64,000 nucleotides of DNA from Anaerolineae bacterium (GTDB lineage: Bacteria; Chloroflexota; Anaerolineae; Aggregatilineales; Phototrophicaceae): positions 124,001-188,000 of the forward strand of contig JAHDWN010000006.1 of assembly GCA_023382675.1 (NCBI GenBank). Reading direction: 5' to 3'. The notes under the pieces were generated by a model that saw only the letters and a list, made by a program, of their open reading frames with translations, was not told where the DNA came from and searched no databases. Within the stretch, counting starts at the first letter, position 1; each line of letters opens with the position of its first letter. Positions 43,430 to 46,803 of this stretch are shown one piece after another. The translations under genes and the position numbers were made by a program.

Positions 43430-43470
43430 CTCCCCCATTTGCACGAGCGCCCGCGCTCAGGCACAATCGA

Positions 43471-43498
43471 AGGCGACTCGGCTGCGAGTCGCCTTTTT
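43471..43498 (+). terminator. Terminator of the secreted protease gene
   Basis: A perfect 10-bp stem (AGGCGACTCG at 43471-43480 with CGAGTCGCCT at 43485-43494) and a four-base loop followed by TTTT. Confidence 0.9.
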
Positions 43499-43519
43499 GA
43501 TTGCGAACGGCCACCTACC

Positions 43520-43978
43520 ATGCCCGATCTCACCCTATCCCTGACCAACACGCCCGAAGACAGCGACGTGCAGCAAGTGCAGGCCGGGCTGGCCGCCTAC
43601 AATGGACAGCATGCGGAACCTGACGGCTACGAACCGCTGTGCATTTTCCTGCGCGATCCTGCGGGCAAGCTTGTCGGCGGGTTGTTGGGCAACACCTATT
43701 GGGGCTGGCTGAACATCAGCATCTTGTGGCTGCGCGACGACGTGCGCCAGGGTGGCTATGGCAAGCGCATGGTGCAGCTGGCCGAGGCGGAGGCTGTCCG
43801 GCGCGGCTGCCAGGCTGCCCACGTCGATACACTCGACTTTCAAGCGCCGGATTTCTATCGCAAGCTCGGTTACACCGTCTGGGGACAGCTTGACGATCTA
43901 CCGCCGGGGCACACGCGCTATTTCCTCAAAAAGACACTGCCTGGGCCAGATGCGTCACCCGCTCACGGCGTCGATTGA
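43520..43978 (+). CDS. GNAT N-acetyltransferase (paralogue 2)
   Basis: 152 residues from the ATG at 43520, just after the terminator. GNAT core: VGGLLGNTYWGWLNISILWLRDDVRQGGYGKRMVQLAEAEAVRRG, with the acetyl-CoA loop RQGGYGK. It is similar along its whole length to the protein at 39902-40330, about 45-50% identical by eye. Its 3' end overlaps the convergent PRTase-like gene by 16 bases. The substrate is unknown. Confidence 0.85.
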   Translation: MPDLTLSLTNTPEDSDVQQVQAGLAAYNGQHAEPDGYEPLCIFLRDPAGKLVGGLLGNTYWGWLNISILWLRDDVRQGGYGKRMVQLAEAEAVRRGCQAAHVDTLDFQAPDFYRKLGYTVWGQLDDLPPGHTRYFLKKTLPGPDASPAHGVD

Positions 43979-44550
43979 AGGCCCAGCCAGGCACGTACGG
44001 CCGCCGCCTGCCCCACGGGAATTTTGCCCTGCGCAGCATAATTATCCACCGCTTGCGTGAGATGCACCAGTGCTGCCGTGTCGCCCGTCAGCGCCAACCC
44101 ACGCGCATCCAGCAGCGCCAGCACACCCGCCGTCTCCAGGCCGACACGCCGCGCGCCCTGCACCCATGGCAGCGCGAGCATATCACCATCCAGCACCGTC
44201 GTGACCAGCAGCGTCTTGTGGCCGATGTCATACGCGCCGACCAGATCATCCACCGGCGGCTGGCCGACGCCCCGGCTGTAGACGAGCGGGATACCCGTGC
44301 GCAGCGCCAACGCTACCCCGAATGGCAGCGCGGCCACGTCGCACAGCAGCCGGACGTAATCACCCGCGCGCAACCGCGCCTCCGCCGCATCGACACAGGC
44401 TGCCAGCACGTCGGGATACGAGGCCAGCAGCTCGAAGCGCGTCAGGAACGGACGCCGCCTGCCACCCCCGGCGTCGAAGTCGCCGAATTGCAGCAGCCCC
44501 GCCTCAGCGAACAGATCGAGCAGCGTATCCACCTGGGTTCGTTCAGGCAT
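43963..44550 (-). CDS. Orotate-phosphoribosyltransferase-like protein with altered PRPP motif
   Basis: 195 residues from the ATG at 44550. The layout follows PyrE: LLDLFAEAGLLQFGDFDAGGGRRRPFLTRFELLASYPDVL at the start, then LPFGVALALRTGIPLVYSR and DLVGAYDIGHKTLLVTTV. In active PyrE the PRPP loop after the hydrophobic strand reads like VEDVITTGG; here the place holds VTTVLDGD, so two acidic residues and the TTGG turn are lost or moved. It is probably non-catalytic or changed in specificity. The gene overlaps the upstream OMP-decarboxylase-like gene by 8 bases. Confidence 0.6.
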   Translation of the reverse strand: MPERTQVDTLLDLFAEAGLLQFGDFDAGGGRRRPFLTRFELLASYPDVLAACVDAAEARLRAGDYVRLLCDVAALPFGVALALRTGIPLVYSRGVGQPPVDDLVGAYDIGHKTLLVTTVLDGDMLALPWVQGARRVGLETAGVLALLDARGLALTGDTAALVHLTQAVDNYAAQGKIPVGQAAAVRAWLGLQSTP

Positions 44551-45142
44551 CGCCCATCTCCAGCAGCCGCGCCCGCGCCGCCTGAGCGAAATCCTCGCCC
44601 CGGCTCGCAGAGACGGCCTCATCACCGCCAAGCAGGATGTTGGCCTGCATAGCCTTCGCCACAACGGTGAGCCATGCGCGCTCACCAACAACCGTCAGCC
44701 GAGAGCCAGCCCACTCCGGCACGCCAACCACGAACACACCCGCCTCGTGCTGCGCCGCGTACACATCGACCAGCGCCGGATCGCTGACCGTCACCCCATC
44801 GACGGCAAAAGCGGTTTCTCCGCAGGCTGTGAGGTAGCCCGCCGACGCCAGCGGCCCGTGCAAGACGGTCAGCACGTCGCCACCCGCATTCGCGTAATGG
44901 ATCGTCCGCTCCAGCGCGACGACGCCTGGCGCGCCCAACGCCATGTACGCCGCCAGGTCGAAGACGTAAGCACAGGCAAGATCACGCGTCGCGCTGATGA
45001 TCGCCTTGCCGAAGGGTAAGAACGGATCGTCATAGCGCAGCATCGGCAGCGGCAGCGCGGCCAGCCGTGGGCTGAGCCAGAGGCCGCGCGCAGCTGCTTT
45101 CTGTTCCAGGATCGCCCGCAGCCGCGCCGAAAACACAGTCAT
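44543..45142 (-). CDS. OMP-decarboxylase-like (PyrF fold) protein lacking catalytic residues
   Basis: 199 residues. It resembles type 2 PyrF: DPFLPFGKAIISATRDLACAYVFDLAAYMALGAPGVVALERTI fits the segment around the first barrel strands, FAVDGVTVSD fits the DAVTV strand and EAGVFVVG the GVFVL strand. At the place of the catalytic DAKRGDIG block stands VLHGPLASAGYL, and the substrate Lys of the KPQ strand is absent. It is also shorter than true PyrF (about 270). Start ATG 45142; a GTG/ATG pair at 45160/45157 is possible. Confidence 0.55.
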   Translation of the reverse strand: MTVFSARLRAILEQKAAARGLWLSPRLAALPLPMLRYDDPFLPFGKAIISATRDLACAYVFDLAAYMALGAPGVVALERTIHYANAGGDVLTVLHGPLASAGYLTACGETAFAVDGVTVSDPALVDVYAAQHEAGVFVVGVPEWAGSRLTVVGERAWLTVVAKAMQANILLGGDEAVSASRGEDFAQAARARLLEMGDA

Positions 45143-45143
45143 G

Positions 45144-46367
45144 CTAACCGCGCCCATCACTGCTGCGCGCCATCTGCCAGGCCATGCTCAGCGCCCAGGT
45201 GCCGCTCCACTGCTGCGCCACCTCGGACTGGCTGCCGAAGCCATACGCCCGCGAGCGCACGTTGTCACCCAGACAGACGGCAAAGGCGCTGCCCTCGTCG
45301 CTGTCCGCACGGTCATCCTCGCGCGCCGGATCGCTCAGCACCGCGATCCCGACTCGATCCGGCGCTTCGCTCGCCAGCCGCCGCGCAATCTGCTCAGCGC
45401 GCAGTCGCAGCGGCGATCCAGTGTCATCCAGTTCATCAGGATGCTCAAACCGCTCCGCCAGCGCCACCCGGTCAGCATGACCCGCCCGCGCCATTCGCTG
45501 TTGGATCGAACCGGGCACACCGGCCTCGACCACCGCCAGCTGCAATCCGCGCATTTCCAGAGCCGCCGCCACTGCGTCTTCCAGCGTATCGCCGTCCACC
45601 CCAAAGATGAAATCGCCGACGCGCTCGCGGATCTGCGCTTCGATCTGCGCGATCATCGCGTCAGCTTCTGCCTCGCTGTCCGCCTTGGCCGTGATGCGCA
45701 CATCCACCTGCCCGGAATGCGCCGCCAGCCCGACCGTCGGATTCATCATCTCAAGCAGATCACTGCCGAGCCGATCATCCAGGGTGCTCTCGCCGATGCC
45801 AGCCGTCTTGAGCACGTGCGCCTTGATGATCGCCAGACCATAGCGCTCGCGCAGGAACGGGATTACCGATTTCTCCGTCAGATACTTCATCTCGCGCGGC
45901 ACCCCCGGCAGGCTGATGATCACCCTGCCCTCGTGTTCGACGATGAAGGCCGGCGCTGTCCCAACGGGGTTTTCGATGACCGTCGCCTGATCCGGCAGAA
46001 ACGCCTGCCGTTTGTTATTATCGGTCATGTGGGCGCGGAAACCGGCGAAGCGCTCGGCGATTTTATCCAGCAGCGCCTGATGAAACACCAGCGTTCGCCC
46101 CGTCGCGCGCGCCACCGCCTGGCGCGTCATATCATCGACCGTGGGACCGAGTCCGCCACAGGTGATGACTACTTGCGCCCGGCCCAGCGCATTCTCAATT
46201 GTCTCGGCAATCCGTATTTCGTTGTCGCCGACGGAGGTCATATAATACAGGTTGATCCCAATCCCGCGCAGCCGCTGCGCCAGATACACTGAGTTCGTAT
46301 CTGTGATTTCACCCAACAGAATTTCCGTGCCGATGGCTATTATCTCAGCATTGACTTGACTGGCCAT
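45144..46367 (-). CDS. CinA-family protein with intact MoCF domain and diverged C-terminal domain
   Basis: 407 residues. The N-terminal MoCF (COG1058) domain is complete: AEIIAIGTEILLGEITDTNS, VGDNEIRI, VITCGGLGPTVDDMTR and NPVGTAPAF with SLPGVPREMKYL. The middle KH-like part follows. The C-terminal domain should hold the nicotinamide-nucleotide amidase motif AESCTGG; at its place is VVEAGVPGS, and the later GavSe region is also missing. Pyrophosphatase activity of the N-terminal part may remain; the deamidase function is probably lost. The next gene begins within a few bases of the stop. Confidence 0.83.
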   Translation of the reverse strand: MASQVNAEIIAIGTEILLGEITDTNSVYLAQRLRGIGINLYYMTSVGDNEIRIAETIENALGRAQVVITCGGLGPTVDDMTRQAVARATGRTLVFHQALLDKIAERFAGFRAHMTDNNKRQAFLPDQATVIENPVGTAPAFIVEHEGRVIISLPGVPREMKYLTEKSVIPFLRERYGLAIIKAHVLKTAGIGESTLDDRLGSDLLEMMNPTVGLAAHSGQVDVRITAKADSEAEADAMIAQIEAQIRERVGDFIFGVDGDTLEDAVAAALEMRGLQLAVVEAGVPGSIQQRMARAGHADRVALAERFEHPDELDDTGSPLRLRAEQIARRLASEAPDRVGIAVLSDPAREDDRADSDEGSAFAVCLGDNVRSRAYGFGSQSEVAQQWSGTWALSMAWQMARSSDGRG

Positions 46368-46555
46368 GAATTTACGTCCTTTATCGAAATCGCGCCGTAA
46401 AACCCCGACGTTTACATCTGGGGATATAAGGCGAGAACTTGTTAGGCATTTGACAGCTCCTTTGGGCTATACTTGATTTAATTCGACTGGACAATCACTA
46501 CACAAGCCTGTGATGGGATGGTGGCGGAAAAAGTCCAGCGCGGCTCTTTAACAAC
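46368..46555. other. Gene-free stretch upstream of the CinA-like gene and the hairpin region
   Basis: No credible coding frame. A perfect TTGACA stands at 46450-46455 and TATACT at 46469-46474, but the 12-base spacing is too short for a normal promoter. The minus-strand promoter of the CinA-like gene should lie here, but I cannot place it. Confidence 0.4.
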
Positions 46556-46754
46556 TGAATGTCGGGCGTTGGGATGGGTAGTCCATCCCGTAAAACATTC
46601 AACGCACCCAAGAGAGAACCGGACATTGAGCAGTCCTTAAACACTCAATCCGCTGGGGCATCAGCGGACTACACGAGCGGCAGTCAGACGTGCTTCGGCA
46701 CGCAGCCGTGTTGACAGTAGCAGCCCCCGCCTTTAGGCGTCGGGAGTATGTCAC
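46556..46754 (+). ncRNA. Row of hairpins ending in an IS200/IS605-like right end (candidate remnant or structured RNA)
   Basis: Four hairpins in order: a long one with TGAATGT (46556-46562) pairing ACATTCA (46595-46601) around GGGATGG/CCATCCC (46571-46577, 46583-46589); TCCGCTG/CAGCGGA at 46649-46655 and 46662-46668; CGTGC-TTCG-GCACG at 46689-46702; and CGCC-TTTA-GGCG in a C-rich/G-rich frame at 46724-46746. The last hairpin plus GGGAGTATGTCAC is like the right end next to tnpB genes of IS200/IS605 elements, where the omega RNA scaffold ends. No tnpA or tnpB is present. Element identity is by memory of such ends, so tentative. Confidence 0.4.
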
Positions 46755-46775
46755 ATGAGAATTCTTGCGAGTTGC

Positions 46776-46803
46776 TTGCAAATTTGGACAGGTACACTAT
46801 AAT
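46776..46803 (+). promoter_or_regulatory. Promoter of the ABC ATPase gene
   Basis: A perfect TATAAT at 46798-46803 and TTGCAA at 46776-46781 with a 16-base spacer. It lies just after the hairpin row and about 115 bases before the GTG start, leaving a roughly 105-base leader. Confidence 0.55.

Follow-up and report, generated by a model that had tools for sequence, protein, structure and literature searches.

A cinA-like gene followed by pyrF-like and pyrE-like genes with missing catalytic motifs in Chloroflexota

Why should a bacterium keep, behind a gene of the cinA family, two genes that resemble those of the UMP-making enzymes PyrF and PyrE and lack their key motifs? The question is raised by a stretch of 64,000 nucleotides, referred to here as the window (positions 124001-188000 of contig C6 in G000, a draft genome of 6.4 Mb that is 96.5% complete), in which a minus-strand run of three genes, designated cinA', pyrF' and pyrE', occupies positions 43963-46367 exactly. 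An initial annotation had described all three products as degenerate homologues that keep their family folds, had attributed this to joint loss of the catalytic motifs, and had proposed a new job such as nucleotide sensing or scaffolding rather than decay. The three genes and the motif strings quoted for them are indeed present, and the features of the locus are as follows.

45144-46367, minus strand: cinA', 407 aa; COG1058 (MoCF) domain and KH domain intact, PncC/CinA C-terminal domain degenerate. In the protein, the MoCF ADP-ribose pyrophosphatase domain covers residues ~6-175, the KH domain 184-256 (with the GIGES loop) and the C-terminal domain ~262-407.
44543-45142, minus strand: pyrF', 199 aa; predicted OMP-decarboxylase-like pseudoenzyme (TIGR02127 match, AlphaFold2 model, PDB 3r89).
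43963-44550, minus strand: pyrE', 195 aa; predicted orotate-PRTase-like pseudoenzyme without the PRPP loop (PRK13809, AlphaFold2 model, PDB 3qw4).
44543-44550, minus strand: overlap of the pyrF' stop and the pyrE' start, 8 nt.

The starts of pyrF' (ATG at 45142) and pyrE' (ATG at 44550) are backed by homologues, the 242-aa open reading frame of the latter beginning too far upstream. A gap of 1 nt lies between cinA' and pyrF', and near-overlapping spacing recurs in the about 25-33 orthologous loci in which it was measured.

Predicted folds and lost residues of PyrF' and PyrE'

The PyrF' and PyrE' families are without a Pfam model; neither the window proteins nor any of 26 orthologues gave a Pfam match. 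In single-sequence profile searches, PyrF' matched TIGR02127 weakly (E = 2.6e-6; 26.8 bits, below the equivalog cut-off of 110.6 bits), and PyrE' was likewise a weak match to PRK13809 (E = 4.3e-6). Their folds were predicted with confidence by AlphaFold2 from the window protein and its relatives (pLDDT 95.4 and pTM 0.92 for PyrF'; 92.0 and 0.87 for PyrE'). The best PDB matches of the PyrF' model are OMP decarboxylases (OMPDCs; Z 17-20), with 3r89 at Z = 19.9 and rmsd 2.4 over 187 residues, and orotate phosphoribosyltransferases (OPRTs) top the ranking for the PyrE' model, which superposes on the OPRT domain of Leishmania UMP synthase (3qw4) with Z = 22.2 and rmsd 2.5 over 185 residues. The claim that the family folds are kept is thus borne out by the models. 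In secondary structure, the PyrF' model has five (beta-alpha) units followed by three strands without helices between them, and the latter stretch may be a remodelled version of the barrel's second half.

For PyrF', residues were compared between 39 family members and 39 canonical PyrF sequences, the canonical set being nearly all from the same phylum, judging by record titles. Of the 39 canonical proteins, 36-38 retain the GLD Asp, the YKPN Lys and each residue of the D-K-D block (YKPN Lys, 37/39; D, K and D of D-x-K-x-x-D, 38/39, 36/39 and 36/39); these residues are gone in nearly all 39 PyrF' proteins, where the YKPN Lys position holds Val, Leu or Met and the D-K-D positions hold mostly His, mostly Pro, and mostly Ser, Gly or Thr. 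H95 replaces the catalytic Asp in 32/39, the Asp being retained in the other seven, and P97 replaces the Lys in 31/39; the C-terminal phosphate-site block is mostly missing. The protein shares with type-2 OMPDCs (TIGR02127; PDB 3r89, 3v75, 4mjz) the fold, the N-terminal half of the sequence and the DxPxLP and GAAG..ALER segments, but it is shorter, lacks the catalytic Asp and Lys, and has a short beta stretch in place of the C-terminal phosphate-site half. Judged by these alignments, PyrF' is an OMPDC-like protein without the residues for the OMPDC reaction.

For PyrE', 35 family members were set against 24 canonical PyrE sequences. In 23-24 of the 24 canonical proteins the PRPP loop (DDLxTxG) carries its two Asp and its Gly, the loop Lys is present, and so are the Ser, Tyr, Asp and Arg of the first substrate segment (SG..SP.Y.D.R); none of these residues is conserved in PyrE'. 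The likeness to the 3qw4 domain is therefore one of fold, whereas the PRPP loop, the catalytic loop Lys and the substrate segment are absent, and PyrE' is by the same comparison an OPRT-like protein without the residues for the OPRT reaction. Two PyrE' genes bear traces of the PRPP loop and appear to be intermediates: L184:4675-5238 (TDLLTDGAAE) and L177:4629-5177 (TDVLSDGVAE).

Motif loss is thus family-wide in both proteins. The phosphate- and nucleotide-contacting residues are those that were lost, and sensing of the old ligands is for this reason disfavoured. A different possibility is that PyrF' and/or PyrE' catalyse some new reaction, in pockets remodelled at the strand ends that once carried the catalytic residues. 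Near-invariant residues at or beside the lost positions speak for it, namely F61 (35/39), H95, P97, F98 (36/39) and Y103 (36/39) in PyrF' and a new string, GAYDIGH, in PyrE' (Y107, D108 and H111 in 32-33 of 35). However, these residues are largely hydrophobic and could merely fill an emptied pocket, a metal or phosphate motif was not seen, and the position of H95 is still Asp in some members, so that a new activity seems unlikely.

Intact and degenerate domains of CinA'

For CinA', the N-terminal half departs from the picture of a wholly degenerate protein. The window protein matches PF00994 (E = 3.7e-37) and the KH family PF18146 (E = 4.8e-24), and both were found in 32/32 orthologues, PF02464 in 0/32. 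In Thermus thermophilus CinA, Mg and ADP-ribose are bound by E12, D20, D45, D76, E156 and E187 (PMC4246079); the aligned residues of CinA' are E15, D23, D48, D79, E159 and E193, unchanged across the 32 orthologues. Since these residues match the Thermus enzyme and are invariant, the N-terminal half is probably an active ADP-ribose pyrophosphatase. The view that all three proteins are degenerate consequently holds for PyrF', PyrE' and the amidase domain of CinA', and fails for the pyrophosphatase site and the KH loop of the latter, which are invariant.

The C-terminal domain presents the opposite case. Thermus CinA (COG1058-KH-PncC) and CinA' share their domain order, their pyrophosphatase residues and the KH-domain loop GIGES (PMC4246079), but the amidase domain of CinA' lacks AESCTGG, YxNxxK and S/TGIAGP, and PF02464 is blind to it in the 32 orthologues; AESCTGG is absent from every CinA' orthologue C-terminus examined. 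Descent of this domain from PncC is nevertheless indicated by two comparisons: the C-terminus of the CinA' orthologue in genome G041 matches PF02464 over positions 3-151 with 27.9 bits, above the cut-off, and alignment of the C-terminal domain with the own PncC by hhalign gives E = 6e-4, against 0.2-0.8 for 20 shuffles. A stand-alone PncC with AESCTGG is encoded in the window's genome, and 51/61 genomes have PF02464 matches besides the one in CinA' of G041, most of these genomes thus holding an intact PncC as a separate protein. A similar arrangement is known from E. coli YfaY (CinA lineage 2.2.1.2), in which MoCF is fused to an inactive PncC domain while a separate active PncC is present (PMC3855486). 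YfaY, however, belongs to another lineage and keeps a motif remnant with the consensus SEAACGG, where CinA' has EAGI, and only CinA' precedes pyrF'-pyrE'.

Distribution, selection and the pyrimidine pathway

In family f1, to which the window belongs, PyrF' was detected in 25/37 genomes and PyrE' in 23/37, or 24 when a PyrE' cut at the contig end of G034 is counted, weaker canonical matches having been set apart by score. The two co-occur among the 37 genomes (Fisher p about 0.01, with G034 counted as present and phylogeny ignored). The same three-gene order recurs in most f1 loci fetched, with a divergent ABC ATPase gene on one side of cinA'-pyrF'-pyrE' and a convergent lepA on the other, and it was seen again in contigs of a second collection; a scan of GTDB contigs, partly overlapping the genomes searched earlier, recovered 39 loci encoding PyrF', and at 33 of these CinA' comes first. 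In f1 and several other lineages, a position next to cinA' is the rule. Variants occur within the order: families f3 and f8 have cinA'-pyrE' without PyrF', f7 has PyrF' away from cinA', and f2, f4 and f6 have CinA' with a degenerate C-terminus and no pyr pair. In the class beyond the order, PyrE-like matches score below about 113 bits, and those inspected are canonical. One locus, L167, lies on a contig titled Pleurocapsa minor, a cyanobacterium (JAHHHY010000001), yet carries a Chloroflexota cinA'-pyrF' and probably stems from a mislabelled bin.

Loss of the amidase motif in CinA' is order-wide and includes families in which the pyr pair is absent. The amidase domain therefore probably decayed before the pair joined, and the loss was stepwise rather than joint, contrary to what had been proposed. 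When canonical homologues are included in the tree, a split with support 1.0 separates PyrE' from them. The unrooted PyrF' tree likewise has one clade (support 1.0), except for the partial sequence L189, which fell just below the score cut for the pseudo-PyrF label and hence was labelled canonical; a first rooted PyrF tree was uninformative, its outgroup being poor. These trees point to a single origin for PyrF' and a single origin for PyrE'.

Could the pair simply be decaying remnants of a UMP-synthase locus? The lost catalytic motifs would agree with this, as would faster divergence (mean distance 0.60-0.63, versus 0.31 for the CinA' N-domain) and a stop within the aligned stretch reported for G024 and a few others. 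However, between G000 and G002, at dS 0.7-0.9, dN/dS is 0.27 for pyrF' and 0.24 for pyrE', compared with 0.20 for the C-terminus and 0.08 for the N-terminus of cinA', which indicates that PyrF' and PyrE' are under purifying selection; their reading frames are maintained over about 20 genera, and the near-overlapping starts are retained. With dN/dS, synteny and conserved frames against it, decay is the least credible of the explanations considered. The suggestion of a new job in place of decay thus gains from the conserved operon, the selection ratios, the confident predicted folds, the single clades and the intact PncC encoded elsewhere.

With regard to the pathway itself, canonical PyrF, PyrE and PyrB were sought in the draft genome of the window and none was found, so that of the separate intact genes asked about, pncC is present and canonical pyrE and pyrF were not detected. 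Because PyrB is among those not found, the pyrimidine pathway appears to be lost in this genome. The only PF00215 match there is not PyrF, being hexulose-6-phosphate-synthase-like and adjoining a gene for a SIS isomerase; the two genes (L001:1495-2682 on contig C9) may form a ribulose monophosphate pathway pair. Upp-like and other PRTs are present, as judged by eye. In G002, which is without a detected canonical type-2 PyrF, a dihydroorotate dehydrogenase match of 256 bits was noted (C58:129699-130577, L106), the corresponding matches in its genus-mates being weaker.

The lack of canonical PyrE and PyrF in the window's genome might suggest that PyrF' and PyrE' replace them, with residues that have migrated still supporting both the OMPDC and the OPRT reaction. 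The residue counts make this highly improbable, since the proteins have lost the residues for catalysis and phosphate contact together with the phosphate-site sequence at the C-terminus; moreover, the pathway itself appears to be gone, and canonical PyrF also occurs in 12 of the 25 f1 genomes that hold PyrF'. Presence of PyrF' is unassociated with that of canonical PyrF (p = 0.73), and the pair accordingly neither replaces the UMP pathway nor depends on it. The order of the two genes does recall UMP synthases, as had been pointed out: canonical PyrF and PyrE of the class are often fused in the PyrF-PyrE order, for instance in G042 as a single 602-aa frame.

Possible roles of the pyr pair

Pseudoenzymes are in general common. 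A stable bacterial operon that holds two predicted pseudoenzymes of consecutive pathway steps beside a half-dead bifunctional enzyme is unusual, as is retention of the pair even where the pathway appears lost. That a disarmed pair of UMP-making enzymes is kept behind a half-disarmed gene of NAD recycling suggests reuse for another job. A literature search, including CinA with OPRT in Chloroflexi, found no description of the pair, and one on Aggregatilineales with pyrimidine or auxotrophy found nothing related.

The reading that we prefer, tentatively and as a real possibility short of a probable one, has PyrF' and PyrE' as non-catalytic partner subunits of an active CinA' pyrophosphatase, held through its dead amidase domain; it is preferred because adjacency is the rule and the dead domain of the third protein could serve as a dock. 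CinA' would act on ADP-ribose or a related dinucleotide, PyrF' and PyrE' would dock onto it, most likely at the degenerate C-terminal domain, and, once docked, they would adjust its activity or fix where it takes place, for instance through an effect on an open/closed movement. Such a movement is known for Thermus CinA. As to history, the amidase domain of CinA may have degenerated first, since the stand-alone PncC covers the NMN-amidase step; a duplicated pyrF-pyrE pair would then have landed behind cinA, lost catalysis and been retained as partner proteins. A more specific version, in which PyrF' and PyrE' as a pseudo-UMP synthase form a heteromeric complex that regulates the ADP-ribose pyrophosphatase by docking on a third, dead domain, is rather doubtful; if true, two dead enzymes of pyrimidine synthesis would be control subunits of NAD/ADP-ribose turnover. 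In principle this resembles the trypanosome AdoMetDC prozyme, a pseudoenzyme activator in which a dead homologue is retained as partner subunit (PMC5201418). In that case, however, the partner of the prozyme is a homologous active enzyme, whereas CinA' is not a homologue of PyrF' or PyrE'.

Distance matrices corrected for the CinA' N-terminus gave partial r of 0.37-0.48 when PyrF', PyrE' and the CinA' C-terminus were compared with one another, values that are not clearly above those with the neighbours LepA and ABC ATPase; because these correlate as well, the correlations are unspecific and are not taken as evidence of contact. Against the subunit reading, PyrF' or PyrE' stands alone in some genomes, and PyrF' lies off cinA' in one family. 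The same family, together with the occurrence of CinA' without the pair elsewhere, would fit PyrF' and PyrE' being ligand sensors or scaffolds independent of CinA', with the operon reflecting shared transcription only. Such independence is improbable given the prevailing adjacency in f1 and several other lineages.

Should the partner-subunit reading hold, the locus would offer a natural case of enzymes turning into partner proteins, with readable intermediates in L184 (traces of the PRPP loop) and G041 (amidase domain). For annotation, pathway calls in Chloroflexota should not take these genes for pyrF, pyrE or pncC.

PADLOC profiles of known anti-phage defence proteins gave no match. Upstream of cinA', the non-coding region 46430-46780 (minus strand) gave no Rfam family at the gathering threshold and bears a hairpin-like string, CTCCCGACGCCTAAAGGCGGGGGCTGC, which we take to resemble the ends of IS200/IS605 (TnpB) elements. 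On the other side, a GNAT acetyltransferase gene (43439-43978, plus strand) is convergent with pyrE' and shares 16 bases with its end, and a second homologue lies close by, both in the window's genome and in G002 (cluster 23).
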